Notes: a model not told the origin generated them from the sequence alone. 64,000 nucleotides of DNA from Acidimicrobiales bacterium (GCA_035294085.1 DATGLP010000015.1:1-64000), one strand, 5' to 3'. Counted from the first letter of the stretch, positions 2,774 through 57,603 are shown. Numbers and translations are program-made.

Positions 2774-2777
2774 GCCC

Positions 2778-4950: not shown

Positions 4951-4973
4951 CGACGGCGCCTCCGTTCGCACCT

Positions 4974-6759: not shown

Positions 6760-6794
6760 GGATGCCGGTGTTCAACACGACACCCGTTGCGGCC

Positions 6795-8087: not shown

Positions 8088-8152
8088 GTGCTCTCCCCCA
8101 TGCTCGGGCGCGCCGGACCGTCGCCACCCGGACGACCCCGGCTCTCGCCATT

Positions 8153-8191: not shown

Positions 8192-8209
8192 GGAGGTCGA
8201 GGCGCTCGG

Positions 8210-9478: not shown

Positions 9479-9521
9479 GGAAGGGTCCTCCCCTCGCTCG
9501 TCCCCAGGCGCGGGCGTCGCC

Positions 9522-10388: not shown

Positions 10389-10444
10389 CTCGCGTCCCCC
10401 CTGGAACGAGGCTGACGGCCCAACGGCCATCAGATATCCTACAC

Positions 10445-10458
10445 GATCTGCTCAGATC
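10445..10458. promoter_or_regulatory. Palindrome GATCTGCTCAGATC, putative operator
   Basis: A 6+2+6 inverted repeat lies in the divergent space between the isomerase (minus) and SDR (plus) genes. Its ATCT-N4-AGAT core is the same as at 314-325. A TAGGAT hexamer on the minus strand (10436-10441), a good actinobacterial -10 for the isomerase, lies right next to it, so a bound repressor would block that promoter. Confidence 0.55.
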
Positions 10459-10545
10459 GGGCCGGCCCGGACGGCGCCGTGCCCGTCGGCACAACACCCG
10501 GGCAGCCGCCCGCCGGCGGCGAGCCAGCGAGCAAGGGGGCTTGAG

Positions 10546-35539: not shown

Positions 35540-36697
35540 GTGGCCGGCAGCATGAGGCAGGTGGGCAGGGACACCTGGGAGCTGCGGGTGTACCTGGGCA
35601 GGGACTCCGAGGGGCGGGTGCACCACCGCCATGCCCGCTTCCGGGGATCGCGCCGCCAGGCGGAGCGCGAGTTGGCCCGTATGGTGGCCGAACAGGAGGC
35701 CAGGCCCGCCCCCGCACTCGAGGAGCCCCGCCTATGGGGCCCTTCGACAACGGTCAACGACGCCATCTCGGCTTGGCGGGACAACGGCTGGGAGGATCTC
35801 TCGCCCAAGACCGCCCGCCACTACGAGAGCATCTGGCGCGTGCACATCTTCGCCTCGATCGGCCGGCGGGGGATCTCGTCTCTTACCACCTACGACGTGG
35901 AGCGTTTCTATCGTTCCCTCAAGGCGGCCGGCCTGTCGCAGGCGACAGTCCGCCAGGTCAAGTCGGTGCTGCACCGAGCCTGCCGCCTGGCGCAGAAGTG
36001 GAGCGGCGGCAGCTTGCACAACCCGGCCGCGGACGCCGATCTTCCGGTCTGGAGGCTGGAGGAGAAGCGTGAGGGCGTGCGAGCCCCTTCGCTCGGCGAG
36101 GTGCGGGCGTTGATCCAGGCGGCGATGGCGGCGGAGATCCGCTTCGGGACCCTTGTGCGCTTGCTGGCTGCCACCGGCATGCGCAGGGGGGAGGCATGTG
36201 CCCTTCGCTGGAGCGACGTTGAGTTCGACACGGGTCTGGTCACCGTGGACGAGAGCGTGGTTGGCGCCAAGGGTGGGGCAGTCGTCAAGTCCCCAAAGAC
36301 CAAGGCCAGCATCCGTAGGCTGGCCTGCGATCCGGCTACCGTTGCCGCGCTCCGGGAACTGCGAGCCGAGCAGGAGCGGCTGGCTTTGGTCTGCGGCGAG
36401 CCACTGACCGAAAGCGCGTTCGTCTTCTCCTTCGAGCCAGCGGGTCAAGTGCCTCCCTATCCAGACTCCTTCAGCCACGCCCTCGCCCGCCTGCGAGATA
36501 AGGGGCTGGTGGCCCCGGACGTGCACCTGCACTCGCTTCGACACTTTCACGCGACTGCACGCGACCCCGTGATCAGCGAGGCTCAGAAGCAGGCCCGTCT
36601 CGGCTGGTCCACCGTGCAGATGGCGCGCCACTACACCGACGGCCTGTCCGAGGAGGATCGTCGGGCTGCCGAGCACGTGGGCGAGCTTCTCGGTTGA
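35540..36697 (+). CDS. Tyrosine recombinase (phage/ICE-type integrase)
   Basis: A 385-residue site-specific recombinase. An N-terminal arm-binding part (residues ~1-55, VHHRHARFRGSRRQAERELA) is followed by a SAM-like core-binding domain (~65-165, with TARHYESIWRVHIF). The catalytic domain carries Arg in TGMRRGEACALRW, His-x-x-Arg in LHSLRHFHAT, and the nucleophile Tyr in QMARHYTDG. Trp stands where the second His often is (LGWST), as also seen in Cre-type enzymes, so this is tolerated. GTG 35540 follows a GGAGAGGGGGCC site. It marks the left end of an island inserted at tRNA-Arg. Confidence 0.94.
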   Translation: MAGSMRQVGRDTWELRVYLGRDSEGRVHHRHARFRGSRRQAERELARMVAEQEARPAPALEEPRLWGPSTTVNDAISAWRDNGWEDLSPKTARHYESIWRVHIFASIGRRGISSLTTYDVERFYRSLKAAGLSQATVRQVKSVLHRACRLAQKWSGGSLHNPAADADLPVWRLEEKREGVRAPSLGEVRALIQAAMAAEIRFGTLVRLLAATGMRRGEACALRWSDVEFDTGLVTVDESVVGAKGGAVVKSPKTKASIRRLACDPATVAALRELRAEQERLALVCGEPLTESAFVFSFEPAGQVPPYPDSFSHALARLRDKGLVAPDVHLHSLRHFHATARDPVISEAQKQARLGWSTVQMARHYTDGLSEEDRRAAEHVGELLG

Positions 36698-37645: not shown

Positions 37646-39061
37646 AGTCCGGCGGAGTGGTGTATGACGACTTCCGTGTCAACCGTGTTGCCTCGGTTCA
37701 GCTGATGGCTTCGAGCTCCGCTGGCACCACCTCCTTCGGGTCGGTTCCGACTGCGCCGCCGGCGGCGGCGCTCAGACGGGCTTTGGCGAGTGACTCGGCG
37801 CTCATGGAGCGTCGTGCCACGGCCCACTCGTCGTGCTGTTCGGCGAGGACGGCGCCGCAGAGGCGGATGAGGGCCGGGCGGTTGAAGAAGATGCCGACGA
37901 CGTCGGTGCGCCTCGGAGCTCCTGGTTGAGCCGCTCCTGGCCGTTGTTGGACCAGATCTGGCGCCAGTGCTCGACGGGGAACGTGGAGAAGGCGAGGAGG
38001 TCGGCCTCGGCGTCGGTGAGGAACGCTGCTGCGTCGGGGAACTGTCGCTCCAGCTGGTCGACGACCCGGTCGCACTGAGCCTTGACCTGGGCGGCGTCGG
38101 ACTGCGCGAAGATCGTGCGCACGAGGGTGGCGACCATCGCCTGGGCGGACTTCGGCACCCGGGTGAGCAGGTTGCGCATGGCGTGGGTGCGGCACCGCTG
38201 CCAGGTGGTCCCGGGCAGCACTGCCGCGATGGCGTTCTTCAGGCCTTCGTGGGCGTCGGAGACGACCAGGGCAACGCCGGACAGCCCCCGGGCAACCAGG
38301 CCGCGGAGGAACGCCGTCCACCCAGCCCCGTCCTCGGTGGTGAAGCAGTCGACGCCGAGGATCTCCCGATGGCCCTCCGCGTTCACGCCCGTGGCGATCA
38401 CCGTCGCCACGCTCACCACCTGCCACCCTCTCGCACCTTGTGGAACAGGGCATCGAGCCACACAGAGGTGTAGGGGCCGGCGTCGAGGGGGCGGTTGCGG
38501 AACTCGGTCACCTTCTGGTCGAGGTGCTTCGCCAGCTCGGAGACCTGGGACTTCGGCATTCCGTCGATGCCCATGGCGCGCACCAGGTCATCCACCCGGC
38601 GGGTCGAGACGCCCTCGACATACGCCTGGCACACGACGCTCACGAGCGCCTGCTCGGCTCGCCGGCGAGGCTCCAGCAGGTTCGGGAAGTACGCGCCCCG
38701 CCGCAGCTTGGGATGTCCAAGGTGATCGTGCCCGCCCGGGTGTCCCAGCGCCGGCGCCGATGCCCGTTGCGGCTGTTCACCCGGGCGTCGCTGCGCTGGC
38801 CGTAGCTAGCGCCGCAGAGCACGTCGACCTCGGCGTCCATGAGCAGCTCGGCCGCCATCTTCACCATCTCGCCGAGCAGTTCACTGCCCGCCTCGGACTC
38901 CAGGTACTTGCGCACGAGCTCACCCGCGCCCATCGTGTTGGTGACGACCACCGTGTTCTCCCTTCAGTTCCATCGCTGGTTCTTGAAGGTTGACACGGTG
39001 GTCGTCGCGTCTGGGGGACCCTCATGAGGGGCTACCCCTCGTACACCACTCTGGCGGACTC
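37646..39061 (-). mobile_element. IS256-family insertion sequence (decayed), with terminal inverted repeats
   Basis: The ends are imperfect inverted repeats: GTCCGGCGGAGTGGTGTA on the left (37647-37664), and its near-complement at 39041-39061, which on the minus strand reads GTCCGCCAGAGTGGTGTA. A second internal repeat, CCGTGTCAACC, lies inside both ends. The right end abuts the broken IS3 orfA, so this element probably inserted into an older IS3. Confidence 0.8.
37698..38951 (-). pseudogene. IS256-family (Mutator) transposase with several frameshifts
   Basis: The protein can be followed in pieces across three frames. The N-terminal part is LLMDAEVDVLCGASYGQRSD...RRRWDTRAGTITLDIP. A shift near 38715 leads to AYVEGVSTRRVDDLVRAMG and the first catalytic Asp in [12 protein letters not shown] second, near 38420, leads to [20 protein letters not shown], the second Asp in [13 protein letters not shown] and the Glu in [13 protein letters not shown] third, near 37915, leads to [23 protein letters not shown]. 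All domains and the DDE residues remain, so decay is recent and due to indels, but no active enzyme can be made. Confidence 0.88.
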
Positions 39062-44059: not shown

Positions 44060-46642
44060 TCAGACGAGCCGGTCCCCGTGCCGTGGACGGCGCACGACCC
44101 CGGCGACCCCGACGATGAGCAAGAGCGCGAGGCCGGTCATGATGTTCTCGGCGAAGGGGTTGAAGTTGAGCAGGTCGAAGCCGTTCACCATGACGGTGAG
44201 GACCAGCACCGCAGCGGTCAGGCCACCGAGGCTGACGTAGCCGCCGAAGAAGCTCGCCCCGCCGAGGATGACGGCCGAGATCGCCTGGAACGCGAGCCCC
44301 GACCCCGAGTTGGGCGCGCCGCTGCCGAGGCGCGAGGTGAGGTAGAAGCCGGCGAGGCCTGCCATGAGACCGCTCAGCGCGTACGCGAACACGAGCAACG
44401 GCCCGCTCCGGATGCCGTTCGCACGCGCCGCGTGCGGATCGCGGCCGAACGCGAACAGGTGCTTGCCGAACGGGCTCCGGTAGAGGAAGAGACCAGCGAG
44501 GAGGAGGAGGGCGGCGAGCACGATCGTCGCCACCGGGACAGGACCGATGCTCGACGACGCGATCTGCCAGTACGTGCGCGGGATCGGCCCGACGCTCTGC
44601 GGGTACCAGATGAGCGCGAGGCCGTTCACGACGAGCGCCACCGCGTAGGTGACGAGGAACGAGGGCAGCCCCGCGAGCACGAGACCCGCGTTCACGAGCC
44701 CGGTCAGCAGGCCGATCCCGACGAACGCGGCGACGGCGAGCCCGAGGTCGTGGTCGACGAGGAGCTGGGCGGTGACGAGGTTGGTGAGCGTCAGCGTGGC
44801 GCCGATGCTGAGGTCGATCCCCGCGGTGAGGATCACGACGAGCTCACCGAGGCCGAGCAGACCGAGGATCACGACCTGACGGCCGATGTCCTCGAAGTTC
44901 GTGGCCGTCCCGAAGAACGACGTACGCGACGCCAGCGCGACGCACATCGCGGCGAGGGCGAGCAGCGGGACACCCGCGCTCGAGGTCGCGAACCTGGCGA
45001 TCGAGGTGCCGGGCCGGTGCACGGCTCGGAGCGCTGCCCGCAACGCAGCGGCGACGCCCCCGAGCGGGCGGGTGGGCCCGCCGACCGCCGCCGCGCCCTC
45101 GAGGGGCGGAACTGCCGCCGTGCGGGGGGCGCTGCTCGTCATCGCGCGCAGCAGCTCCTGGCGGGTCACGCGCTCCCCGTCGAGCCGCTCCACGATGCGC
45201 CCGTGCACCATGACGATCGCCGAGTCGCACAGCTCGACGATCTCGCGAGTGTCCGACGACACGACGAGGATCGCCATGCCGTCGGAAGCGAGCTGGCGGA
45301 GCACGCCGTAGATCTCCTCGCGGGCCGCGACGTCGACGCCGCGGGTCGGCTCCGCGGCGATGAGCACCCGAGGCGTCGACGCGAGGCAGCGGGCGAGGAG
45401 GACCTTCTGCTGCTGGCCCCCGCTCAGCATCGAGCACTGCCGGTCGAGCAGCTGCGGCGCGAGCGCCACCCGTCGGGCAGCCTCCTCGGTGCGCTCCGCG
45501 ATCCGCCGTCGCGACACGAGCGGGCCCCGCCGGGACGAACGGAGCACGCACGCAGCGACGTTCTCACGCGCCGAGCGCACGAGCACGAGGCCGTCCCGCT
45601 TGCGATCCTCCGGGGCGAAGGCGACGCCGGCGCGCACCGCCGCCTGCGGGCCGCGATCGTCGATCCGCCTCCCCGCGCAGGCGACCCGGCCGGCGATCGG
45701 ACGGCGCAACCCGGCGATCGTCTCGGCGACGGCCGTCGCGCCCGAGCCGCGCTGTCCGGCGAGGCAGACGATCTCCCCGCCCTTGAGCTGGAGCGAGACG
45801 TCGCTGAAGCTGTGACCGCTCAGGCCCTCGACCTCGAGCACGGTCTCGCCGGCGCGGCGGGCCTCCTGCGAACGACCACCCGCCCTCGCGTCGCGCCCGA
45901 CCATGAGCCGTACGAGGGAGCGCTCCTCGGTCTCCCCCGGCGACACCTGCGCGACGACGCGGCCGTCGCGGATGACGGTGATGCGGTCCGCGAGGGCGAG
46001 GACCTCCTCGAGGCGGTGCGAGATGTACAAGATGGCGAGGCCCTCCGCCTTGAGGGCCCGGACCACTCCGAAGAGCACCTCGCTCTCCCGGTGGCTGAGC
46101 GCCGACGTGGGCTCGTCCATCAGGAGCACGCTGACCTCGCGGCTCAGCACCCGCGCGAACTCGAGGAGCTGGCGCTCCGCGACCGACAGGCGAGCCACCC
46201 CCGTCCCGGCGAGCGCGCCGTCGAGGCCGACGCGCCCGAGCGATGCGCGCGTGGCCCGGAGCAGCTCACGCCGGTCGATGAGGCCGATGCGCCCCCGCGG
46301 CTCCCTGCCGAGGAAGGCGTTGTCCGCCACGGTGAGGTTGTCGAGGACCGTGAGCTCCTGGTAGACGGCGCCCACGTGCCGCTTCAGCACCTCGGAGGTG
46401 CCCAGCCCCGAGATCGGCCGGCCGTCCACGAGCACGCTGCCGGCGTCGGGCTGGAGCATCCCGGTGACGAGGTTCACGATCGTGCTCTTGCCGGCGCCGT
46501 TCTCACCGATGAGGGCGTGCACCTCGCCCCGTCGGCACTGCAGCGAGACGCCGCGCAGCGCCTGGACGCCCGGGAAGGACTTCGAGACCTCGCGCAGCTC
46601 CAGCGCCGGGACCTCGTCCTCGGGTGATGGACCGTCAGGCAT
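44060..46642 (-). CDS. Fused ribose-type ABC transporter ATPase-permease
   Basis: A single 860-residue chain. Residues ~1-500 are an RbsA-like double ATPase: Walker A GENGAGKST, degenerate signature LSVAERQ and Walker B LLMDEPTSALS; then the second half with a degenerate P loop GQRGSGATA, intact LSGGQQQK and EPTRGVD. Residues ~530-860 are an RbsC-like permease with VVILTAGIDLSIGATLTLTN and about nine membrane segments. The frame is open throughout. ATPase and permease are normally separate genes, so this is a natural fusion. ATG 46640-46642 has a GAGGAG site. A separate permease in the same operon would provide the second channel half. Confidence 0.92.
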   Translation of the reverse strand: MPDGPSPEDEVPALELREVSKSFPGVQALRGVSLQCRRGEVHALIGENGAGKSTIVNLVTGMLQPDAGSVLVDGRPISGLGTSEVLKRHVGAVYQELTVLDNLTVADNAFLGREPRGRIGLIDRRELLRATRASLGRVGLDGALAGTGVARLSVAERQLLEFARVLSREVSVLLMDEPTSALSHRESEVLFGVVRALKAEGLAILYISHRLEEVLALADRITVIRDGRVVAQVSPGETEERSLVRLMVGRDARAGGRSQEARRAGETVLEVEGLSGHSFSDVSLQLKGGEIVCLAGQRGSGATAVAETIAGLRRPIAGRVACAGRRIDDRGPQAAVRAGVAFAPEDRKRDGLVLVRSARENVAACVLRSSRRGPLVSRRRIAERTEEAARRVALAPQLLDRQCSMLSGGQQQKVLLARCLASTPRVLIAAEPTRGVDVAAREEIYGVLRQLASDGMAILVVSSDTREIVELCDSAIVMVHGRIVERLDGERVTRQELLRAMTSSAPRTAAVPPLEGAAAVGGPTRPLGGVAAALRAALRAVHRPGTSIARFATSSAGVPLLALAAMCVALASRTSFFGTATNFEDIGRQVVILGLLGLGELVVILTAGIDLSIGATLTLTNLVTAQLLVDHDLGLAVAAFVGIGLLTGLVNAGLVLAGLPSFLVTYAVALVVNGLALIWYPQSVGPIPRTYWQIASSSIGPVPVATIVLAALLLLAGLFLYRSPFGKHLFAFGRDPHAARANGIRSGPLLVFAYALSGLMAGLAGFYLTSRLGSGAPNSGSGLAFQAISAVILGGASFFGGYVSLGGLTAAVLVLTVMVNGFDLLNFNPFAENIMTGLALLLIVGVAGVVRRPRHGDRLV

Positions 46643-46694
46643 CGCAGCTCCTCGCGTCAGGGGCACCGCTCCCGGCGGGCCGGGAGGCCCCGAC

Positions 46695-46713
46695 GCCGGA
46701 GCGCTGCTCCGGC
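46695..46713. terminator. Hairpin between binding-protein and ATPase-permease genes
   Basis: GCCGGAGC-GCT-GCTCCGGC is a perfect 8-bp stem with a 3-base loop, 57 bp after the binding-protein stop. It repeats the arrangement at 6709-6759 and likely raises binding-protein expression over the downstream transporter gene. Confidence 0.6.
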
Positions 46714-46769
46714 GCCGGCGCCTCTGGCCACCGGCGTGGGGGAGATCGCCGTCGGGCCGCCCGCACTCC

Positions 46770-47918
46770 CTACGACTTGCAGTAGGGGTTGAACCTGCAC
46801 GGCATGGGCCCCGCCCACCACGCGTTGTCCGACTCCTTCAGGCCGACGTAGTGGGAGATGTTCGACGCGGTGATGTTCGGCTTCGGCACGATGAAGTCCT
46901 TCGGGACCGGCTTGCCCTCGAGGATCTTCACCGCCTGGAGCACCGCGTACATCCCGACGTCGACGGGGATCGGCGTGATGATCGACGGGATGTGCGTCTC
47001 AGCGACGATCTTCATCCAGCCGTTCGCGTCGTCCCCGGTCCACGCCTTGATCTGCGAGACCCGTCCGGCCTGCTTCACGGCGTCGTAGCAGCCGACCCCC
47101 TGGTTCCCGCTGATCGAGGCGACCGCCTGGATCGACGGGTAGCGCGTCAGGATCGCCCGCATCTCCTGCTCGCAGACGGCCGGCTGGTAGTTGGCGTACT
47201 GGGTCGTGAGCACCTTGATGCCCGGGTAGTGGGCCAGGATCGACTTGATGCCGTCGACCTCCTGCACCGTCGCACCGTTGCCCGGCTGCCCGCCGATGAT
47301 GACCACGTTCCCGTGCCCGTGCAGCCGCTCCGCGACCCAGGCACCCTGCAGCAGCCCGTTGTTGTTGTCGCCGTCGTTCAGGAACTCCGTGTAGTTCGAG
47401 CAGCTGACGGCGCGCTCCTCGATGAGGACCGGCACCCCCTCGCGCTCGGCCTTCGCGATGGACGGGCACAGGGCGGAGGTGTCGGTCGCCGCCAGGATGA
47501 TGGCGTCGACGTGCTGGGCGAGCAGGTTCTCGATGTCGCTGATCTGCTGGCTGATCGAGTCGTTGGCGTTCGTGTACACGAGCTTCGCCTTGCCGTGCGT
47601 GAGCGCGATGCCGTACTCAACCTCGGCCTTCGCCATGATGCGCCAGGAGTTCGAGAGCGACGCGTCCGCGTAGCCGATCTTGAACGGCGGCTTCTTCTTG
47701 AACTTCGTCGTGTTCACCATCACGCCCTTGAACGGCGGCGTCGGCAGCTTCGGCGGCTTGAACACGAAGGTGTCGCGCCCCCCGCTCGACGGCGCCCCCG
47801 CGGCCGCCGTCCCTGCCGCCGCGGCGACCGTGAGCAACGCGGCGGCCGCCGCGACGGCGGCCCTCCCGAGAACCCGGCTGCTCGATCTCGGCAGCCGGTG
47901 CTTGACCTCGCTGCGCAT
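46770..47918 (-). CDS. Sugar ABC transporter substrate-binding protein
   Basis: A 382-residue exported protein. ATG 47916-47918 lies after GAGAAAGGAAACGTG. The N-terminus MRSEVKHRLPRSSSRVLGRA and the following hydrophobic AAVAAAAALLTVAAAAGTAAAGA form a signal peptide with an Ala-x-Ala cleavage site and no lipobox. The mature part is a type I periplasmic-binding fold: FKIGYADASLSNSWRIMAKAE, QHVDAIILAATDTSAL, GGQPGNGATVQ, IQAVASISGNQGVGCYDAVKQAG. It is the ribose-like receptor for the second importer; the ligand is unknown, but neighbouring dehydrogenases suggest a polyol or sugar acid. Confidence 0.9.
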   Translation of the reverse strand: MRSEVKHRLPRSSSRVLGRAAVAAAAALLTVAAAAGTAAAGAPSSGGRDTFVFKPPKLPTPPFKGVMVNTTKFKKKPPFKIGYADASLSNSWRIMAKAEVEYGIALTHGKAKLVYTNANDSISQQISDIENLLAQHVDAIILAATDTSALCPSIAKAEREGVPVLIEERAVSCSNYTEFLNDGDNNNGLLQGAWVAERLHGHGNVVIIGGQPGNGATVQEVDGIKSILAHYPGIKVLTTQYANYQPAVCEQEMRAILTRYPSIQAVASISGNQGVGCYDAVKQAGRVSQIKAWTGDDANGWMKIVAETHIPSIITPIPVDVGMYAVLQAVKILEGKPVPKDFIVPKPNITASNISHYVGLKESDNAWWAGPMPCRFNPYCKS

Positions 47919-48003
47919 CACACGTTTCCTTTCTCTCCATCCCCGCTGCGCTCCGGACTGCGGCTCGCGCCGCAGGCCGAGGCGCGGCTGGTCGACTTGT
48001 CGT

Positions 48004-49272
48004 TCAGCGCCCGAAGGCGTTCAGCGGCTCCTCACCTCCAAGCAGCACCCCCCTTTCTCCTCCGTCACCGCTCCGGCTGGGCTCGGAGCAGACCTCGCGC
48101 GCCGCCGGATCCGCCGTGTGCGGCCCCAGCAGCTCGGGCCGCTTCCGCCGAGGCCGGCGGCCTCCCAGGCGATCCGCGAGCACGACGAGTCGCGCCGCGA
48201 CGCGGCCGCTCCCTCGCTCGAGGCGGGCGTGGAACATCAGCCCGAGCACGAGGATGGCGCCCGTGGCGACGGACTCGTAGCCGACGGGCACCCCCGACAT
48301 CGTCAGGAGGTCGAAGATCACGCCGAGCACGAGCGCGCCCCCGAGTGCGTTCGACGCCTCCCCCCTGCCGCCGAACAGGCTCGTGCCGCCGATCACCGCC
48401 GCGGCGATGGCGCTCAGCTCCATGCCCGAGCCGAGGAAGCTCTGCCCCGACCCCTCGTAGGAGGTCTCGAAGATCCCGCCGAGCACCGCGCCGAGGGCCG
48501 AGAGCGCGAAGGCCCAGACGAGAACCCGCCCCGTCCGCACGCCTGCCGCGATCGCGGCACGCCGGTTGCCGCCGACGAGGTAGAGCTCCCGCCCGCTCGC
48601 ACTGCGCCGGAGCAGCAGGCGCGTGCCGAGCGTCGCGACGAGCAGGACGGGCAGGCCGATGGGGATCCCGCCGAAGGAGCGGACGGCGAAGCCGGCGAAG
48701 CCCGGTGCCAGGTTGCTCGCCGGGCCGCCGGACGTCCACAGCAGGTTCGCCCCCTCGAGGATCAGCATCATGGCGAGCGTGACGATGAACGAGGGGATGC
48801 GGGCGAGCACGACGAGGGCCGCGTTCACGACCCCGACGCCGACGCCGATCGCGACGGCGAGCGCGACGATCGGCAGGATCATCGAGTTCTGCGAGGCCAT
48901 GAGGTTGGCGAGGATCACCGAGGTGAGCGAGACGATCGAGCCGACCGAGAGGTCGATCTCCCCGGCGATGAGCGCGAACGTCTGGCCGAGCGCGAGCAGG
49001 GCGACGGGCGTCGCCTGGCTCACGATGTTGTCGAGGTTGGCGACGGTGAGGAACTGCGGGAAGGCGACGGCGCCGGCCACGATGAGCGCGCCGAGGAGCG
49101 CGTAGCAGCCGGTCCGGGAGGCCGCGTTCGTGACCCGGAGCGCCCGGACGCGCTCGTCCTGGCTGAGCGGACGCGCCCACGCCCCGGCCGACGCAGGTGC
49201 AGCCGGGGCCGGGACCGGTGCGGCCAGCTCGGAGAGCCCCGTCCCGGTGACCCGTGGGCCGAGATCGGTCAC
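48004..49272 (-). CDS. Ribose-type ABC transporter permease
   Basis: A 422-residue permease. FALIAGEIDLSVGSIVSLTS is the signature loop, with NPxF-like ARIPSFIVTLAMMLIL and LFGGRGEASNALGGALVLG. N- and C-terminal hydrophilic extensions of about 55 and 65 residues are longer than usual. GTG 49270-49272 overlaps the ThDP-enzyme stop (GTGA). It lies 85 bp upstream of the binding-protein gene. Together with the fused permease downstream it would form a heterodimeric pore. Confidence 0.9.
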   Translation of the reverse strand: MTDLGPRVTGTGLSELAAPVPAPAAPASAGAWARPLSQDERVRALRVTNAASRTGCYALLGALIVAGAVAFPQFLTVANLDNIVSQATPVALLALGQTFALIAGEIDLSVGSIVSLTSVILANLMASQNSMILPIVALAVAIGVGVGVVNAALVVLARIPSFIVTLAMMLILEGANLLWTSGGPASNLAPGFAGFAVRSFGGIPIGLPVLLVATLGTRLLLRRSASGRELYLVGGNRRAAIAAGVRTGRVLVWAFALSALGAVLGGIFETSYEGSGQSFLGSGMELSAIAAAVIGGTSLFGGRGEASNALGGALVLGVIFDLLTMSGVPVGYESVATGAILVLGLMFHARLERGSGRVAARLVVLADRLGGRRPRRKRPELLGPHTADPAAREVCSEPSRSGDGGERGVLLGGEEPLNAFGR

Positions 49273-51086
49273 GGCCGCGTCCTGTCGGTGCGCCCGGGCG
49301 GCACGACGTCGTCACGGCGCGAGCTCGGCTGGGGGTGCGGGAGCGGCGGCAGCGCCCACGAGCCCGTCGCCAGCGGGGACGCCTCGGGGTCCACGACGAC
49401 GCTCACGACCGATGGCCGGCCCGACTCGATCGCCGCCGCGAGCGCCTCGGCGAGCTCGCCTGGCTTCTCGACGGCGAGCCCCTCGGCCCCCATGGCCCGC
49501 GCCATCGCCGCGTAGTCAGCGGAGTAGGGCTGGCCGTCCTCTCGCGCGAAGCTCGTCGCGAACTCTCGGCTCGGCCCGAAGTAGCCGCGCTGGATGTCCC
49601 GAATCGAGATGTAGCCGCCGTTGTTCCACACCACCCAGGTGACCGGGATCCCGTACTCGACGGCGGTCGCGACGGCACCGGGCAGCATGAGGAAGCCACC
49701 GTCGCCGACGACAGCGGCGACCGGCCGGTCCGGGGCGGCCAGCTTGGCGCCGAGCACGCCGGCGACCCCGAACCCCATCGCACCGAATCCCCAGCTCTGC
49801 AGGAGCGACGCGGGGCGGGGCGCCTGCCACGCCTGGACGATCCAGTTGTGGTGCACGCCGACGTCGGACACGAGGATCCCGTCGGCCGGGAGCACCCGGC
49901 GCAGGTCGTGCAGCAGCCGCTCGGGCCGGATGGGCGTCGCCTCCGAGCGCGCGTGCTCCGCGCCGGTGCGCTCCCAGTCACGACGCCACGAGGCGATCTG
50001 CGACCGCCAGGCGCGCCGCGCGTCGGCGGCCCCGAGGTCGGCACGCCCGGCGAGCGCCACGGCGAGGGCGCGGAGGAACGCTCGCGCGTCGGCGACGATG
50101 CCGAGCTCCACCGGGTAGTTGCGGCCGAGCTCCTGCGGGTCGATGTCGACGTGGATGAGCTTCGTGGGAGGGATCCGGTAGGTGTAGCCGGGGATCCACG
50201 AGCTCGCCGCCCGGTCGTCGAAGCGGGTCCCCACCGCCAAGATGACGTCGGCGGTGCTCGCCGCCCTGTTCGCGGGGAGGCCGCCGTTGCGGCCGACCTC
50301 GCCGACCGCGAGCTCGCTGGCGGGATCGAAGCAACCCTTCGCCGAGGGGCTCCAGGCGACCGGCAGGCCGAGCAGCCTCGACACCTCGACGAGGGCCGCA
50401 GCCGCTCCGGCGACCTCGACGCCGTGGCCGGCGATGGCGAGGGGGCGCTCGGCGGTCACGAGCAGCTCGACGACGGTCTCGAGGTCCTCGGGTGCGACGC
50501 CGACGCGCGACGAGATCCCGCGGCGCCACGCGGAGGGCTCGGGGAGCTCGACCTCCGCCTCCTCCACGAACACGTCGAGCGGCACGTCGAGGTTCGCCGG
50601 GCCGGGCCGGCCGGTGAGCATCGTCGAGAAGGCCTGGCGCAGCATGAGCGGGAGCTGCTCGGGCCGCGTCGCCTGGAAGCTGCGCTTCACGTAGGGACGG
50701 ACGACGCTCGGGAAGTCCGCCTGGAAGTAGCGCCCCGTCTCCTGGAAGGCTCCCCGGTTGAACTGCGTCGTCGGGATGTTGCCGGTGATGGCGAGGAAGG
50801 CCGACGAGTCGAAGAGCGCGCCCGCGAGCGCGATGACGAGGTTCGCCGAGCCCGGGCCGCACGAGGTGAGCGTGACGGCCGGCCGGCGCGCGACCCGGAA
50901 GTAGGCGTCGGCCATGAAGCCCGCTGCCGCCTCGTGGTGGACGGAGACGACGCTGAGGCGGTCGCGAGCGTCGAGGAGGGCGTCGAGGAGGCCGACGTTC
51001 CCGTGCCCGCAGAGCGCGAAGACGTGGCGGACGCCCTCGCGCTGGAGGTACTCGGCGATCATCTCCGAGCCGCGCATGCGAACCAT
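49269..51086 (-). CDS. Thiamine-diphosphate-dependent enzyme, acetolactate-synthase-like
   Basis: 605 residues with the three-domain ThDP fold. The catalytic Glu is in VSVHHEAAAGFMADAYF. The middle domain includes AVGTRFDDRAASSWIPGY. The ThDP motif GDG...NN is in VVGDGGFLMLPG followed by VTWVVWNNGGYISI. ATG 51084-51086 has a GGAGGGGGGC site. In an operon with a sugar importer and beside dehydrogenases, a role in carbon-chain cleavage of a catabolic intermediate is more likely than branched-chain amino acid synthesis; no small regulatory subunit gene is present. The reaction is unassigned. Confidence 0.88.
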   Translation of the reverse strand: MVRMRGSEMIAEYLQREGVRHVFALCGHGNVGLLDALLDARDRLSVVSVHHEAAAGFMADAYFRVARRPAVTLTSCGPGSANLVIALAGALFDSSAFLAITGNIPTTQFNRGAFQETGRYFQADFPSVVRPYVKRSFQATRPEQLPLMLRQAFSTMLTGRPGPANLDVPLDVFVEEAEVELPEPSAWRRGISSRVGVAPEDLETVVELLVTAERPLAIAGHGVEVAGAAAALVEVSRLLGLPVAWSPSAKGCFDPASELAVGEVGRNGGLPANRAASTADVILAVGTRFDDRAASSWIPGYTYRIPPTKLIHVDIDPQELGRNYPVELGIVADARAFLRALAVALAGRADLGAADARRAWRSQIASWRRDWERTGAEHARSEATPIRPERLLHDLRRVLPADGILVSDVGVHHNWIVQAWQAPRPASLLQSWGFGAMGFGVAGVLGAKLAAPDRPVAAVVGDGGFLMLPGAVATAVEYGIPVTWVVWNNGGYISIRDIQRGYFGPSREFATSFAREDGQPYSADYAAMARAMGAEGLAVEKPGELAEALAAAIESGRPSVVSVVVDPEASPLATGSWALPPLPHPQPSSRRDDVVPPGRTDRTRP

Positions 51087-51416
51087 GACCGAGCCCCCCT
51101 CCGACCCGCACTCCGGCGAGCACCCGCCGAGATCTTCGGGTGCGAGCGTCGCGCCGAGCCGCTGTCCTCCTGCTGCGTCTCGCCTGTTGCGTCTAGCGCA
51201 CTCGCTTGCGCACCCCACACGAGTATGCGACACTCGCCGGTAGCCGTCAAGCAGCGGGCGCGACGGCGCCGGTCTCTGCTGGCGCTGCGTGTTGACGCCG
51301 GCGCGACCGCCGGGGAGCATCTCCCTCGGTGCCCGCCGGGCAGCGCGTGGTCACGGCGCGGCCGGGTGCGAGCGCTCGGCCGGTCCGGGAGGTTGCGACG
51401 TGTCGGGGAGGTTCGC
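51087..51416. promoter_or_regulatory. Divergent promoter region with inverted repeat CGAGT-N7-ACTCG
   Basis: 330 bp between the ThDP-enzyme operon (minus) and the Idh/MocA operon (plus). The inverted repeat CGAGTATGCGACACTCG at 51220-51236 is the clearest symmetric element. The plus-strand operon ends with an IclR regulator, whose family often binds such repeats in divergent promoters. No gene is supported within the region. Confidence 0.45.
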
Positions 51417-52385
51417 ATGGACGGCCTGAGGTGGGCGCTCGTCGGCACGACCGGGTGGGCGGACGCGCTCTTCGCGCCTGCGCTGCGGCGCACGCCCGGG
51501 GCGGTGCTGCGCGGCGCGGCGGGGTCGGGCGCGGACGGCTCGACCGCGTTCAGGGATCGCCACGGCGCCGAACGTGCCTACCGCGACCTCGAGGAGCTCG
51601 CCGCGGACGACGCCGTCGACGCCGTGTGGGTCGCCACGCCGAACGACCTGCACGCCGCCCAGGCGATCCGCCTCCTCGAGGCCGGCAAGCACGTCCTCGT
51701 CGAGAAGCCGCTCGCCACGCGCGCGAAGGACGCCGAGCTCGTCGTCGACGCGGCGCGCCGCAACGGGCGCGTCCTGCGGGTCGGCTACCACCACCGGTTC
51801 CGCTCGGTGCACCAGGCCCTCCGCCGCTACGTCGCGGAGGGCCGGCTCGGCACGGTCGGCGCGGCGCGCTTCCACGCCTTCTCCGCCTACCCCCACGAGC
51901 CGCCGGCCTGGCGACGCAGCCCGGAGCGCAGCGGCGGCTGGGCGATCAACGACGTCGGCACGCACCTGCTCGACCTCGTCCTGTGGATCCTCGGGCCGGC
52001 CGAGCTCGCGGGCGCCTGGTTCGGCAACCCCCGCTTCGGCCTCGACACCGACGACACCGCCACGTTGCTGCTGCGGCTGGCCGGCGGTGGTTCCTGCGTC
52101 GTGGACACCTCGACGGCGCTCGAGAGCCCCGGCGCGAGGATCGAGCTCTACGGCACGCTCGGCTACCTGCGAGCCGAGCGGAGCTTCGAGGGGGCGGCCG
52201 TCCTCGACACCTCCTTCGGCGACGCGCAGCACTACCCCGAGGACGACGCCTTCCGCCTCGAGGTCGAGGACTTCCAGCGCGCCGTGGCGGGCGGCGAGTC
52301 GATCGGGGAGGCCGGGGAGCTCGCCGTGGAGAACGTGCGCCTCATCCAGGAGGCCCGCGCGCTCGACGCCCGGCGGGGCGCCTGA
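51417..52385 (+). CDS. Gfo/Idh/MocA-family oxidoreductase
   Basis: A 322-residue NAD(P)-dependent dehydrogenase. MDGLRWALVGTTGWADALFAPAL is a Rossmann start with a modified glycine motif. WVATPNDLHAAQA and VLVEKPLATRAKDA (EKP motif) are typical. The catalytic Asp/His are in GWAINDVGTHLLDL. ATG 51417 has a GGGGAGG site. It is the first gene of a tightly packed operon and probably oxidises an inositol- or sugar-like alcohol imported by the divergent ABC system. Confidence 0.92.
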   Translation: MDGLRWALVGTTGWADALFAPALRRTPGAVLRGAAGSGADGSTAFRDRHGAERAYRDLEELAADDAVDAVWVATPNDLHAAQAIRLLEAGKHVLVEKPLATRAKDAELVVDAARRNGRVLRVGYHHRFRSVHQALRRYVAEGRLGTVGAARFHAFSAYPHEPPAWRRSPERSGGWAINDVGTHLLDLVLWILGPAELAGAWFGNPRFGLDTDDTATLLLRLAGGGSCVVDTSTALESPGARIELYGTLGYLRAERSFEGAAVLDTSFGDAQHYPEDDAFRLEVEDFQRAVAGGESIGEAGELAVENVRLIQEARALDARRGA

Positions 52386-53833
52386 TGGGACACCCCGAGC
52401 TGGCGGACGCCAAGCGCCTGAGCGGCGTCCTCGTCGACGGCCGCTGGCTCGAGGACGGGCCGGAGTCGCCGGTCCTCGACAAGTACTGGCGCCGCCCCGT
52501 CGCCACCGTCGCGTGCGCGAGCGCCGAGCACGTGGACGCCGCGCTCGACGCGGCGTGGCGGGTGGCGGAGGGCGAGCCGCTCCCACCACGCCGGCGCGCC
52601 GAGGTCCTCGAGGCGGCGGCCGGTCTCCTCGCGTCGCGCGCCGAGGAGGTCGTCGGCCGCTACGTCGACGAGACCGGCTTCACCGTACGCGACGCCGAGA
52701 CCGAGCTCGCCCGGACCCGCGAGATCCTCCGCCTGTGCGCGGAGGAGGCGCGACGGATCGCCGGCGAGGTCGTCCCGATCGCAGGGGCCCCCGGCGGGGA
52801 GGGCCGCCTCTCGTTCACGCTGCGGGTCCCCGTCGGCGTCGTCGTCGCCATCTCGCCGTTCAACGCCCCGCTCAGCACCGTGGCCCACAAGGTCGGGCCG
52901 GCGCTCGCCGCGGGGAACGCCGTCGTGCTGAAGCCGGCGAGCGCGACGCCGCTGTCGGCCATCCACCTCTGCCGCGCCCTGTGCGACGCCGGCCTCCCGC
53001 CGGGCCACCTCGGGCTCGTGTGCGGACCGGGGTCGATCGTCGGCGAGCGCCTCGTCCCCGACCGACGCGTCCGGTACTTCAGCTTCACCGGCTCGACGCG
53101 CGTCGGCCTGCTCGTCAAGCAGCGTTCCGGGATCGCGAAGACCCAGCTCGAGCTGGGCGCCAACAGCGCGACCATCGTCTGCGCGGACGCCGACCTCGAC
53201 CTCGCCGCCCAGCTCGTCGTGCGCGGCGGCTACCGCAAGGCCGGACAGGTGTGCACCTCGGTCCAGCGAGTCCTCGTCGAGGAGGCGGTCGCGCGCGACC
53301 TCGAGGACGAGCTCGCCCGGCGGGTCAAGGCCCTGCGCGTCGGCGACCCGCACCTCGAGGGCACCGACGTCGGGCCGATGATCGCCGAGGAGGAGGCGGC
53401 ACGTGCCCTCGGCTGGGTCGACGAGGCCGTCGCGGCCGGCGCTCGCCTCCTCGCCGGCGGCACCCGCTCGGGGCCCGTCCTCGAGCCGACGCTGCTCGGA
53501 GACGTCCCGCTCGAGTGCCGGATCATGCGCGACGAGATCTTCGCCCCCGTCGTCGCGCTCCACCGGGTCGCCGACCTCGACGAGGCGATCTCGGTCGCCA
53601 ACGCCACCGCCTACGGTCTCCAGGCCGGCGTGTTCACGCGCAGCCTCGACGGCGCGCTGCGCGCCGTGCGCGCGCTGCGCGTCGGCGGCGTCCTCGTGAA
53701 CGACACCTCGAGCTACCACGCCGACCTCATGCCCTACGGGGGGGTGAAGGACAGCGGCTACGGCCTCGAGGGACCGCGCTACGCCGTCGCCGACATGACC
53801 GACACGCGCACCGTCGTCATCAGGGCCTCCTAG
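52385..53833 (+). CDS. Aldehyde dehydrogenase family protein
   Basis: A 482-residue NAD(P)-dependent enzyme. VVVAISPFNAPLSTVAHKVGPALAAG contains the Asn that aids catalysis, FTGSTRVG is the cofactor loop, the general base Glu is in TQLELGANSA, and the nucleophile Cys in KAGQVCTSVQR. EIFAPVVALH and MPYGGVKDSGYG end the fold. LELGANSA instead of LELGGNAP places it nearer the lactaldehyde/glyceraldehyde-type branch than to classic ALDH. ATG 52385 overlaps the preceding TGA by one base, indicating coupling. Confidence 0.92.
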   Translation: MGHPELADAKRLSGVLVDGRWLEDGPESPVLDKYWRRPVATVACASAEHVDAALDAAWRVAEGEPLPPRRRAEVLEAAAGLLASRAEEVVGRYVDETGFTVRDAETELARTREILRLCAEEARRIAGEVVPIAGAPGGEGRLSFTLRVPVGVVVAISPFNAPLSTVAHKVGPALAAGNAVVLKPASATPLSAIHLCRALCDAGLPPGHLGLVCGPGSIVGERLVPDRRVRYFSFTGSTRVGLLVKQRSGIAKTQLELGANSATIVCADADLDLAAQLVVRGGYRKAGQVCTSVQRVLVEEAVARDLEDELARRVKALRVGDPHLEGTDVGPMIAEEEAARALGWVDEAVAAGARLLAGGTRSGPVLEPTLLGDVPLECRIMRDEIFAPVVALHRVADLDEAISVANATAYGLQAGVFTRSLDGALRAVRALRVGGVLVNDTSSYHADLMPYGGVKDSGYGLEGPRYAVADMTDTRTVVIRAS

Positions 53834-53908
53834 CGCGAGGCGCCGGCGCTCGGGCGCGACGAGGGCCGGCCCCGACACCCGGGGCCGACGGAGGGAAAGG
53901 GGGAGCAC

Positions 53909-54319
53909 ATGGCAGGCCAGGGCATCGTGCGCAAGGTGACGGAGTTCGAGTGGGTCGACCTCGCCGGGCACCGCGACGCGGCGCTCACGAAGCTGCTCGT
54001 CACGAAGGAGACCTGCGGGGCGCAGAACCTCGACGTCTTCCTGTCGAGCTACGCGCCGAAGGCCTACGCCGAGGAGCACGTGCACGAGCGGACCGAGGAG
54101 TGCTTCTACATCATCGCCGGAGAGGGCCTCTTCGTCCTCGACGGCGAGCGCCACCTCGTCGGCCCCGGGACGATCGTCTTCGCGCCGCCCGGCACGCGCC
54201 ACGGCATCTTCAACACGGGCATGTCGGACCTCGTGTTCGTCGTCGCCGCCTCGCCGCCCGAGCCCGAGTTCCACGAGCAGTACGCCGACTACTTCGTGGC
54301 GCCCGGCGAGGCCCGCTGA
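53909..54319 (+). CDS. Cupin-domain protein
   Basis: A 136-residue single cupin. The metal-binding motif is in EEHVHERTEECFYIIAGEGLF (His-x-His...Glu), and the second motif in PGTIVFAPPGTRHGIFNTG. ATG 53909 follows GGGAAAGGGGGAG. It sits between two aldehyde dehydrogenase genes and overlaps the next by one base, so it is part of the pathway, perhaps as a sugar or keto-acid isomerase or a small dioxygenase. A strong own ribosome-binding site after a 75-bp gap suggests higher expression than its neighbours. Confidence 0.9.
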   Translation: MAGQGIVRKVTEFEWVDLAGHRDAALTKLLVTKETCGAQNLDVFLSSYAPKAYAEEHVHERTEECFYIIAGEGLFVLDGERHLVGPGTIVFAPPGTRHGIFNTGMSDLVFVVAASPPEPEFHEQYADYFVAPGEAR

Positions 54320-55830
54320 TGACGAGCACGACGGCGCCGGGGGCGGCGCTCGCCCCGGAGGTGCGCGCGTTCCTCGCCCACGACCACGGCGTGTGGATCG
54401 ACGGGGAGGAGCGCCCGACCGCCGGCCGTCTCGAGGTCCTCGACCCCTCCTCGGGCGAGCGCCTCGCCACGGTCGGGCGCGCCGGCGCGGCCGAGGTCGA
54501 CGCCGCCGTTGCGGCGGCCCGGCGCGCCTTCGAGGACGGTCGCTGGTCGAACCTCGCGCCCGAGGGGCGCGAGGAGGTCCTCCGACGCCTCGCCGACCTC
54601 GTCGAGGTCCACGGCGACGAGCTCGCCGCCATCGACTGCCTCGACAACGGGATGCCGCTGCGGCAGGCGAGCGGCGAGGTGCGCTCGGCGGCAGCCCACC
54701 TGCGCTACTTCGCCGGCTGGTGCTCGAAGATCCACGGCGAGACGCTCCCGCTGGCGCGCGGCGGCCGCTTCCACGTCTACACGCGGCGCGAGCCCGTCGG
54801 CGTCGTGGGCGCCATCACGGCGTGGAACTTCCCCCTCGACAACGCGACGTGGAAGATCGGTGCGCCGCTCGCCTGCGGGAACTCGATCGTCTTGAAGCCG
54901 GCCGAGGAGACGCCCCTCAGCGCCCTCCTCCTCGCTCGCCTCGCGCTCGAGGCGGGCGTGCCCCCGGGGCTGCTCAACGTGGTCACCGGGGTCGGCGAGG
55001 AGGCGGGCGCCGCGCTCGCCGCCCACCCCGGCGTGGACAAGGTGGCCTTCACGGGCTCGACCGAGACCGGCCGCCGGATCGTCGAGGCCTCGGCCGGCAA
55101 CCTGAAGCGGGTGACGCTCGAGCTCGGCGGCAAGTCGCCGCTCATCGTGCTGCCGGACGCGCCCCTCGAGTCGTGCATGCCCGTCCTCGTGCGCGCCGTC
55201 ATGCACAACGCCGGTCAGGTCTGCTCCGCGGGGTCGCGGGTGTTCGTCCACAAGGACGCGCTCGAGGGCTTCTTCGGCGAAGCCGAGCGCGTCGCGCGCT
55301 CGATCCGACTCGGGCCGGGGCTCGACCCGGCGAGCGAGATGGGGCCGCTCGTCTCCGCCACCCAGCTCGAGCGCGTCCTCGCCTACATCGCCTCGGGGCG
55401 CGACGAGGGCGCCCGCCTCGTCACCGGCGGCCGGCGGGCGACGGGCGCCCTGGGCGGCGGCTACTTCGTCGAGCCGACGATCTTCGCCGAGGTCGCCGAC
55501 ACGATGCGCATCGCGCGCGAGGAGATCTTCGGGCCGGTCATGTCCGTGCTCGCCTTCGACGACCTCGACGAGCTCGTGGCACGTGCCAACGAGAGCCACT
55601 ACGGGCTCGCGGCCGGGGTGTTCACCCGGGACGTCTCCCGCGCGCACTCGCTCGCCGCGGCGCTGCGCGTCGGGACCGTGTGGGTCAACTGCTACAACGA
55701 GTTCGACCCTGCCGTGCCCTTCGGCGGCTACCGCCAGAGCGGCTACGGCCGCGAGCTCGGGATGGCGGCGCTCGAGGGCTACACGAACCTCAAGTCCGTC
55801 TGGGTGAAGCTCGACGCGGTGGCGCCGTGA
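54319..55830 (+). CDS. Aldehyde dehydrogenase (NAD+-dependent type)
   Basis: 503 residues, the classic ALDH length. VVGAITAWNFPLDNATWKIGAPLACG, FTGSTETGR, general base Glu in VTLELGGKSPLIV, nucleophile Cys in NAGQVCSAGSRV, and EEIFGPVMSVL are all present. It therefore looks fully active, with betaine/phenylacetaldehyde-type similarity. ATG 54319 overlaps the cupin stop. Two different ALDHs in one operon suggest two aldehyde intermediates or an aldehyde and a semialdehyde. Confidence 0.95.
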   Translation: MTSTTAPGAALAPEVRAFLAHDHGVWIDGEERPTAGRLEVLDPSSGERLATVGRAGAAEVDAAVAAARRAFEDGRWSNLAPEGREEVLRRLADLVEVHGDELAAIDCLDNGMPLRQASGEVRSAAAHLRYFAGWCSKIHGETLPLARGGRFHVYTRREPVGVVGAITAWNFPLDNATWKIGAPLACGNSIVLKPAEETPLSALLLARLALEAGVPPGLLNVVTGVGEEAGAALAAHPGVDKVAFTGSTETGRRIVEASAGNLKRVTLELGGKSPLIVLPDAPLESCMPVLVRAVMHNAGQVCSAGSRVFVHKDALEGFFGEAERVARSIRLGPGLDPASEMGPLVSATQLERVLAYIASGRDEGARLVTGGRRATGALGGGYFVEPTIFAEVADTMRIAREEIFGPVMSVLAFDDLDELVARANESHYGLAAGVFTRDVSRAHSLAAALRVGTVWVNCYNEFDPAVPFGGYRQSGYGRELGMAALEGYTNLKSVWVKLDAVAP

Positions 55831-56660
55831 CGCACCGCCGCCTCGGCGCGGCCACCTACGGGTTCCTCTACTCCCACAGCCTCCCCGACGCGCTCCGGGC
55901 GCTCGCCGAGGCCGGCGTGCACGACGTGGAGCTCACGGCCGCCGCGCCGCACGTCGAGGACGGCGTGCTCGCGCCGCGCGACGCGGCGGCCCTGCGCCGC
56001 CTCGTCGGCGAGCTCGGGGTGCGGCTCGTCTCGCTGAACCCGACGTACCTCGACCTGAACCTCGCGAGCCTGAACCGAGGCATCCGCGAGGAGAGCGTCC
56101 GGCAGCTGCTGGCCGCCCTGCGCCTGTGCCACGACCTCGAGGCCGAGCGCCTCGTCCTGTTCGGCGGGCGCCGCCACGTCCTCCTCCCGGCGCCGATGGA
56201 GCGCGTCGAGCCCGTCCTCCTCGACGGCCTCGCCACCCTGGCCGCCGAGGCGGAGCGCCTCGGGGTGACGATCGGCCTCGAGAACGGCCCCACCCTCCTG
56301 CTCGAGCGAGGGCGCGACGTGGCGCGCGTCCTCGAGACGGTCGGGCACCCGCGGCTTCGCGCGGTGTTCGACGTCGCCAACGCGTGGATGGTCGAGGAGC
56401 CCGCAGCCGGGATCGAGCCCCTGCTCGACCGGCTCTGCCTCCTCCACCTCTCGGACACGACGAGGGCGCGCTGGGCGCACGCGCCGGTGGGCGAGGGCAC
56501 CGTCCCCTTCGCCGCGTTCGCCGAGCGCCTGGCGCTCGCCGGCGGCGACGAACCCAGTATCCTCGAGGTGATCGAGATGGGCGACCCCCTCGGCGGGATC
56601 AGGCGGTCGATCGACCGCCTGGAGCCGCTCGGCTGGGCGACGAGCGCGCCATGGCGCTGA
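55827..56660 (+). CDS. Sugar phosphate isomerase/epimerase (TIM barrel)
   Basis: A 277-residue xylose-isomerase-like TIM-barrel protein. MTHRRLGAATYGFLYSHSL starts the first strand. LVSLNPTYLDLNLAS, LVLFGGRRH, IGLENGPTLLLER, FDVANAW and LLHLSDTTRARW supply the metal-site strands. GTG 55827 overlaps the ALDH stop (GTGA). It is not closely similar to the two isomerases of region 1, as none of their WHFWDLPGI-type motifs occur. It likely isomerises a keto sugar or inosose in this pathway. Confidence 0.88.
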   Translation: MTHRRLGAATYGFLYSHSLPDALRALAEAGVHDVELTAAAPHVEDGVLAPRDAAALRRLVGELGVRLVSLNPTYLDLNLASLNRGIREESVRQLLAALRLCHDLEAERLVLFGGRRHVLLPAPMERVEPVLLDGLATLAAEAERLGVTIGLENGPTLLLERGRDVARVLETVGHPRLRAVFDVANAWMVEEPAAGIEPLLDRLCLLHLSDTTRARWAHAPVGEGTVPFAAFAERLALAGGDEPSILEVIEMGDPLGGIRRSIDRLEPLGWATSAPWR

Positions 56661-56691
56661 GGCCCGCCCCCACGACGCAGCGAGGTGGTCG

Positions 56692-57603
56692 ATGGCGAAG
56701 CGCCACAGCGAGGCCGCCGTGCGCGAGACCCCGGCGGGCCTCGTCGAGAGCCTGGAGCGCGGCCTCGCCATCCTCTCGCTCTACGACGAGGAGGCGACCG
56801 AGCTCGGCGTCGGGGAGATGGCGCGCGCCCTCGGCGTGCACCGCAGCACCGCCTCGCGCCTCGCGGCGACGCTGAGCCGGCGGGGCTTCCTCGTCCCCTC
56901 CGGGGAGCAGGGCCGCTACCTGCTCGGGGCGTCCCTCGTGCGCCTCGGGTCGCTCGCGGCGCGCCAGGTCGACGTCCGGTCCGCGGCGCTCGGGCCTTTG
57001 CGCGAGATGGTGGACGCCCTCGGCGAGACGGCCCACCTCGGGGTGCTCCAGGGCAGCGAGGTGGTGACGGACCTCCTCGTGGACGGCTGGCACAGCGTGC
57101 GCTTCCACTCGACGGTCGGCAAGCGCTCGCCGGCGCACTGCAGCGCGATGGGCAAGATGCTCCTCAGCGCCCTCGACGACGGCGAGCTCGAGGCGCTCTT
57201 CGGACGCGGACCGCTCGAGGTGCGCACGAGGAAGACGATCCGGAGCCTCCCGGCCCTGCGGCGCGAGCTCGCCGCCGCCCGCCGGCGCGGCTACGTCGTC
57301 GACGACGAGGAGCTCGAGGTCGGACTGCGCTGCGTCGCTGCGCCGGTGTTCGACTACAGCGGGCGGATGGTCGCCGCCGTGAGCGTCTCGGGTCCGGTCG
57401 GGCGACTCGACGGCCGGGCGATGGACGACGCCATCGACGCCGTGCAGCGCACCGCCGCCGCCATCTCGGCCCGACTCGGGGCGCGCGACGGATCGCTCGC
57501 CAGCCGGGCGGGCGCGCCCGCCGCCGTCGAGGCCGCACCGGCCGGCCGGCGCCGGCGCGCCGCTCACTCGCTGCCGAGCGTGACCGGCGCCGACGCCGGG
57601 TAG
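56692..57603 (+). CDS. IclR-family transcriptional regulator
   Basis: 303 residues. The winged helix at ~18-80 (LVESLERGLAILSLYDEEA, LGVHRSTASRLAATLSRRGFL) is followed by the IclR ligand domain (VGKRSPAHCSAMGKMLLSAL, the conserved Cys-centred segment, and LRCVAAPVFDYSGRMVAAVSVSG). The C-terminal 40 residues are a basic Ala/Arg-rich tail. ATG 56692 lies 31 bp after the isomerase stop. It probably controls this operon and the divergent importer. Its 3' end overlaps the convergent Tat-exported gene by 40 bp. Confidence 0.93.
   Translation: MAKRHSEAAVRETPAGLVESLERGLAILSLYDEEATELGVGEMARALGVHRSTASRLAATLSRRGFLVPSGEQGRYLLGASLVRLGSLAARQVDVRSAALGPLREMVDALGETAHLGVLQGSEVVTDLLVDGWHSVRFHSTVGKRSPAHCSAMGKMLLSALDDGELEALFGRGPLEVRTRKTIRSLPALRRELAAARRRGYVVDDEELEVGLRCVAAPVFDYSGRMVAAVSVSGPVGRLDGRAMDDAIDAVQRTAAAISARLGARDGSLASRAGAPAAVEAAPAGRRRRAAHSLPSVTGADAG

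Follow-up and report, generated by a model that had tools for sequence, protein, structure and literature searches.

What does a bacterium degrade with a gene set that joins a sugar-type importer to an acetolactate-synthase-like enzyme, an oxidoreductase of the Gfo/Idh/MocA family, two aldehyde dehydrogenases (ALDHs), a cupin, and an isomerase, and which of these enzymes breaks the carbon chain? The question is raised by a gene cluster in a 64,000-nucleotide stretch of DNA from an Acidimicrobiales bacterium (GCA_035294085.1 DATGLP010000015.1:1-64000; hereafter the window, to whose first letter all positions refer). The original prediction, made from this stretch alone, had placed an unassigned catabolic pathway at 46,770-56,660 and suggested that its thiamine diphosphate (ThDP)-dependent enzyme performs the cleavage normally assigned to an aldolase. 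Our analysis tentatively favors this role; we estimate a probability of roughly 45% that the ThDP enzyme cleaves the carbon chain of an imported sugar or polyol derivative and that the aldehyde product is then oxidized by the ALDHs.

The ThDP enzyme and its operon

Scans of open reading frames (ORFs) against Pfam and NCBIfam delimited a unit of ten genes at 44,060-57,603, arranged in two divergent, tightly packed operons:

44060-46666, minus strand: ATP-binding cassette (ABC) ATPase-permease fusion of a CUT2-type importer (Pfam ABC_tran twice, BPD_transp_2)
46770-47921, minus strand: sugar-type periplasmic binding protein, Peripla_BP_4 (family scan)
48004-49272, minus strand: CUT2 permease (BPD_transp_2)
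49269-51086, minus strand: ThDP-dependent enzyme of an IolD/AHAS-like clade (Pfam, NCBIfam, alignment, tree)
51087-51416: divergent intergenic region of 330 bp, putative promoter region
51417-52385, plus strand: Gfo/Idh/MocA NAD(P)-dependent dehydrogenase (PF01408/PF22725)
52382-53833, plus strand: aldehyde dehydrogenase ALDH1 (PF00171)
53909-54319, plus strand: small cupin (PF07883)
54316-55830, plus strand: aldehyde dehydrogenase ALDH2 (PF00171)
55827-56660, plus strand: TIM-barrel isomerase/epimerase-like enzyme (PF01261)
56692-57603, plus strand: IclR-family regulator (IclR_C, HTH_IclR)

The ORF and Pfam scans recovered every gene of the divergent operon pair that the original prediction had named, from the importer to the IclR regulator. 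Its boundaries enclosed the core genes; the flanking genes for the ATPase-permease fusion and IclR lie just beyond them. The two ALDHs, described as dissimilar, were 37% identical over 424 columns. Adjacent genes overlap by 4 nucleotides at four junctions (permease/ThDP enzyme, Gfo enzyme/ALDH1, cupin/ALDH2, and ALDH2/TIM barrel) and the remaining junctions are short, which indicates an operon-like arrangement. All enzymes of the cluster have kept their catalytic motifs.

The ThDP enzyme carries the catalytic Glu52, the motifs C26-G27-H28-G29 and H412-H413-N414-W415, and the cofactor motif GDG...NN. An alignment of 33 clade members revealed that C26-G27-H28-G29, E52, H412-H413-N414-W415, and W487-N488-N489 are invariant. 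The His following the conserved Gly (the GHGN site) is also present in the IolD of the same genome, a ring-cleaving ThDP enzyme, but is absent from acetohydroxyacid synthase (AHAS), Gcl, and Xsc. In the ThDP superfamily, residue 28 has been described as an activity position (PMC3534367), and the H28A/N484A variant of cyclohexane-1,2-dione hydrolase (CDH) acquires pyruvate-ketone ligation (PMC12247030). In a maximum-likelihood tree, the family formed a distinct clade (support 100), within which the window enzyme, its relative in locus L051, and seven mostly actinobacterial sequences constituted a subclade (support 100). The group with the GHG motif, which includes both this clade and IolD, was separate from AHAS, Gcl, and Xsc (support 89), and an AHAS-like paralogue elsewhere in the genome grouped with E. 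coli IlvI. The AlphaFold model of the enzyme (pLDDT 86) matched AHAS (Z 44.9), Gcl (43.9), hydroxy-keto-acid (HKA) synthase (43.0), and CDH (41.5).

No protein of the cluster reached the cut-off of any NCBIfam pathway equivalog, and four identities were rejected for the ThDP enzyme. It scored 274 bits against a cut-off of 715 for IolD (TIGR04377) and 279 against 676 for Xsc (TIGR03457), whereas with these models the IolD (contig C30) and the Xsc (C10) of the same genome reach 893 and 809, respectively. The score for AHAS was 368 against 538 (TIGR00118), with a separate clade in the tree, and that for Gcl was 273 against 791 (NF008431), with Glu52 present where E. coli Gcl has V. Contig C30 holds a separate inositol operon in which IolC (371, cut-off 300), IolG (403, 355), MmsA (694, 448), IolD (893, 715), and IolB (272, 205) all exceeded their cut-offs. 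Because the genome has its own inositol operon and its own Xsc elsewhere, the inositol and taurine-type roles are already filled, and both IolD and Xsc can be dismissed as identities of the window ThDP enzyme. The view that the cluster is not the standard inositol pathway was thereby upheld.

Two relatives of the enzyme occur in other settings. A more distant GHG-motif enzyme on a Haladaptatus plasmid (L117:8001-11975) has among its neighbors a PF01261 protein and a gene annotated as scyllo-inosose 3-dehydrogenase (iolM), a haloarchaeal neighborhood that hints at cyclitol use in the wider GHG group. In another genome of the same order, G214, a parallel divergent module (L168:6657-15745) comprises IclR, ALDH, Zn-alcohol dehydrogenase, ThDP enzyme, cupin, and ABC genes; its ThDP enzyme has a CGHTN motif and is 39% identical to that of the window.

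Conserved partners and distribution

A tblastn scan of genomes for relatives of the ThDP enzyme (E <= 1e-3, some matches being distant) returned at least 567 candidate stretches. The best 80 of these were 49-63% identical to the window enzyme and represented Actinomycetota, Acidobacteria, Chloroflexi, Rokubacteria/Methylomirabilota, Nitrospinota, SAR324, Alpha- and Betaproteobacteria, Bacillota, and others. We compared 51 loci of at least 15 kb around ThDP relatives with 20 randomly chosen 20-kb windows taken from further genomes in the class. Relatives of ALDH1 (20/51), the cupin (21/51), the TIM barrel (17/51), and IclR (18/51) recurred beside the ThDP gene, and each was found in none of the 20 random windows. 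At least one of six tested partners was present in 38 of the 51 long loci.

An aldehyde oxidizer was the most constant partner of the ThDP enzyme. ALDH relatives were present in 36 of the fetched loci, and those of ALDH1 adjoining ThDP relatives were 41-67% identical to it. Two loci in which no ALDH was seen carried a tungsten-type aldehyde:ferredoxin oxidoreductase (AOR) instead: in L033 it (AFOR_N and AFOR_C) lies immediately downstream of the ThDP gene, and in L060 a 33% identical AOR lies approximately 3.3 kb from it. This replacement, observed in two loci, hints at an aldehyde as the product of the ThDP reaction. The proposed chain-cleaving role fits the IolD-like GHGN site, Glu52, and the steady pairing with an aldehyde oxidizer.

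Two loci from Actinomycetes metagenome-assembled genomes (MAGs) have nearly the same gene set: L051 contains relatives of all ten genes, and L071, a short contig, those of six. Surveys of approximately 400 genomes each of the phylum (396 for the binding protein) and of the order found no close homologue of the binding protein or of ALDH1 outside the window's own genome. In the class, 15 of 395 genomes had a ThDP relative at E <= 1e-100; the distribution of the cluster is therefore patchy. Within approximately 10 kb of the cluster, we read from the sequence a tyrosine-recombinase-like integrase and an IS256/Mutator-type transposase remnant (35540-36697 and 38640-38951), which, together with the patchy distribution, hint at horizontal acquisition.

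The transporters beside ThDP relatives were of sugar, branched-chain amino-acid, amino-acid, tricarboxylate, and metabolite:H+ symporter (MHS) types, a diversity that makes it probable that the family as a whole handles more than one substrate. In four Nitrospinota-type loci (L076, L077, L087, and L107), the ThDP enzyme was 52-53% identical and its neighbors were acyl-CoA dehydrogenase-like and TRAP-like, which indicates that the function of the clade is not uniform.

The importer fusion resembles the RbsA/AraG ATPases, with two ABC domains; the AraG and RbsA models matched below cut-off, and a homologue is present in L051, as is one of the binding protein (64% identical). Direct reading showed that the EKP and GTH motifs of the Gfo/Idh/MocA enzyme are intact. 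Its closest solved relatives are 1,5-anhydro-D-fructose reductase and glucose-fructose oxidoreductase, and it fell below the NCBIfam cut-offs for IolG and levoglucosan dehydrogenase. Relatives of this enzyme act on sugars and those of the binding protein bind them. ALDH1 grouped near lactaldehyde, phosphonoacetaldehyde, and sulfoacetaldehyde dehydrogenases, below NCBIfam cut-offs, and ALDH2 resembles BADH and phenylacetaldehyde dehydrogenase, with a 65% identical homologue in L051; the catalytic Cys and Glu of the ALDHs are intact by direct reading. The metal site of the cupin (H57, H59, E63, and H98) is invariant in an alignment of 18 relatives.

In the TIM barrel, the invariant residues E152, D182, H207, and E247 correspond to the metal and catalytic Glu-Asp-His-Glu set of ketose 3-epimerases. 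Its model (pLDDT 95) matched best a D-tagatose 3-epimerase-like protein (3wqo, Z 32.2) and UlaE (3cqi, Z 30.8), so that the modeled fold and the metal residues agree with the ketose 3-epimerases of PF01261. The family also includes dehydratases and beta-eliminases and hence does not fix the reaction. Of the earlier statement that the cluster has no kinase, dehydratase, or aldolase gene, the parts on kinase and aldolase hold for the ten genes; the absence of a dehydratase is not assertable, because PF01261 includes dehydratases. A second catabolic island, read from the sequence at 324-11307, also contains PF01261-like TIM barrels (324-1250 and 9522-10430), together with a cyclase-like protein, a GntR-like regulator, an aldo-keto reductase, CUT2-like ABC genes, and a short-chain dehydrogenase/reductase.

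The IclR regulator scored 185 bits against a cut-off of 350 for BhcR of the beta-hydroxyaspartate cycle. The intergenic region contains a single weak sigma-70-like site and an imperfect inverted repeat at 51351-51390. An operator search there yielded weak repeats only, none of them conserved with L051, and the repeat is consequently weak evidence for an operator.

Two further ideas suggested by the neighborhoods were not supported. Type II dehydroquinase in two roseobacter loci and a near-ShiA transporter in Amycolatopsis-type loci had suggested quinate or shikimate use; the dehydroquinase occurred in four loci only, in two of them weakly, the transporter scored 347 against 538 for ShiA, and the window has neither gene. 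A TcuA-like FAD dehydrogenase adjoins the L051 cluster, and the genome of the window encodes a homologue with 66% identity to it (C26:38038-39507; L113:10038-11510). We left it out of the pathway, since its close homologues in four further genomes of the class have unrelated contexts without a close ThDP relative. The C26 gene stands alone in its genome, and similar dehydrogenases occur in clusters L043, L069, L070, L078, and L085. The same genome also encodes a further unassigned module, with a TIM barrel, a TcuA-like flavoprotein, and a TcuB-like membrane protein in series (C13:4416-8310; L115:4416-8310).

Proposed route and rival explanations

We infer the sequence of reactions, the mode of cleavage, and the type of substrate as follows. 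The CUT2 transporter would import a sugar-like compound or cyclic polyol, which would be degraded without phosphorylation. The Gfo/Idh/MocA enzyme would oxidize a hydroxyl group to a ketone, which the TIM barrel would then isomerize, epimerize, or dehydrate, possibly assisted by the cupin. The ThDP enzyme would attack the carbonyl of a 1,2-dicarbonyl, hydroxyketone, or oxo-acid and cut the neighboring C-C bond to yield an aldehyde, either hydrolytically as in IolD or by decarboxylation. ALDH1 may convert this aldehyde into an acid, ALDH2 may oxidize a second aldehyde, and IclR may regulate both operons. For this genome, the presence of a CUT2 importer and a Gfo enzyme suggests that the substrate is a sugar or polyol; relatives probably use others.

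Several observations weigh against this proposal. All six tested partners were missing in 13 of the 51 long loci, and structural comparison fails to distinguish ring-cleaving from carboligating ThDP enzymes, their Z scores all lying between 41.5 and 44.9. With transporters varying so widely among relatives, it is chiefly the CUT2 transporter and the Gfo enzyme that speak for a sugar substrate. We know of no substrate or activity for any member of the ThDP clade.

The main rival is a 2-oxo-acid decarboxylase, in which a sugar is converted through an acid and a 2-oxo acid into an aldehyde, and the ALDHs yield an acid shorter by one carbon. The pairing of ThDP enzyme and ALDH is also compatible with it, Glu52 is invariant, the sequence is near AHAS-type enzymes that decarboxylate pyruvate, and carboxylate-type transporters lie beside relatives. 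We nevertheless consider it rather unlikely: the GHGN site resembles IolD and not AHAS, none of the usual sugar-acid dehydratase families was represented in the cluster, and the model for 5-guanidino-2-oxopentanoate decarboxylase scored 262 against 500, far under its cut-off. If the enzyme instead joins carbon chains, as a carboligase of the acetolactate or HKA synthase type, its nearest solved sequence relative (BbmA, 32-33% identity) and the AHAS folds among its top structural matches would be accounted for. Such a role sits poorly with catabolic surroundings comprising an importer, dehydrogenases, and two ALDHs; moreover, no AHAS model exceeded its cut-off and the genome has an AHAS-like paralogue elsewhere, which makes it the least probable of the explanations weighed here.

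Only slightly more probable is the use of an anhydrosugar or glycoside through 3-keto intermediates, with the Gfo enzyme and a PF01261 beta-eliminase or hydratase acting early and a fragment formed later serving as substrate of the ThDP enzyme and the ALDHs. A Gfo enzyme, a PF01261 enzyme, and an ABC importer also make up the known gene layout for levoglucosan use (PMC10066097), the models for levoglucosan dehydrogenase and BT_2158 gave weak matches, and the structural matches of the TIM barrel include 3-keto-glucoside 4-epimerase and 2-hydroxy-3-keto-glucal hydratase. The Gfo enzyme, however, scored 96 against 650 for levoglucosan dehydrogenase, neither a ThDP enzyme nor an ALDH figures in the published pathway, and a related Gfo enzyme is absent from most relatives of the ThDP module.

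Should chain cleavage by the ThDP enzyme be correct, a clade spread over many bacterial phyla, and labeled in the records examined merely as thiamine pyrophosphate-binding protein or acetolactate synthase, would gain a catabolic role. Cleavage of unphosphorylated keto-polyols would supply an additional C-C lyase for sugar catabolism and biocatalysis, and the common set of ThDP enzyme, ALDH, TIM barrel, and cupin could serve as a marker for tracing the substrates of the clade. A broader idea, which we regard as doubtful, is that the clade represents a third kind of diketone or keto-polyol C-C hydrolase beside IolD and CDH, forming the core of a route free of phosphorylation and aldolase, whose upstream oxidoreductases and transporters are swapped for cyclitols, sugars, or hydroaromatic acids.

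Comparison with known systems

A homologous cluster with a known substrate might already explain the gene set; none was found among the annotated clusters, and the open-licence papers searched gave no account of it. The nearest annotated ThDP relatives (47-54% identity) lie on alphaproteobacterial plasmids, such as pUSP3 of Aminobacter sp. MSH1 and pMNOD01 of Methylobacterium nodulans. These clusters share the cupin and the PF01261 enzyme (6/6), an ALDH (5/6), and, in most, an IclR or LysR gene, but they differ in having other transporters, NAD-dependent epimerases, and FAD dehydrogenases, and are equally uncharacterized. The levoglucosan pathway (LgdA-LgdB1-LgdB2-LgdC) has the Gfo dehydrogenase, PF01261 enzyme, and ABC importer in common with the window cluster and differs in its ThDP- and ALDH-free route and in LgdA itself (NF052479), whose model gave the low score reported above. 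BbmA (PDB 8x3x) is the top PDB sequence match of the ThDP enzyme; by title, however, it is an HKA synthase and not a catabolic lyase, and it has GGPL in the region aligned with the GHG motif.

The myo-inositol pathway (IolG-IolE-IolD-IolB-IolC-IolJ-IolA) resembles the window cluster in uniting a Gfo/Idh/MocA enzyme, a PF01261 TIM barrel, a GHGN ThDP enzyme, a cupin-fold protein, and an ALDH. However, identity between the window ThDP enzyme and the IolD of the same genome is only 30%, the IolB model fails to match the cupin, which is small and has a single domain, and the IolC kinase, the IolJ aldolase, and IolB are absent among the ten genes. CDH belongs to the same ThDP superfamily and was compared at the fold level, with approximately 28% identity in the structural alignment and a Z score that other ThDP enzymes reach as well. 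Its cluster context differs from that of the window enzyme, but it cleaves the C-C bond of a cyclic 1,2-dione to yield an oxo acid, the type of cleavage proposed here.

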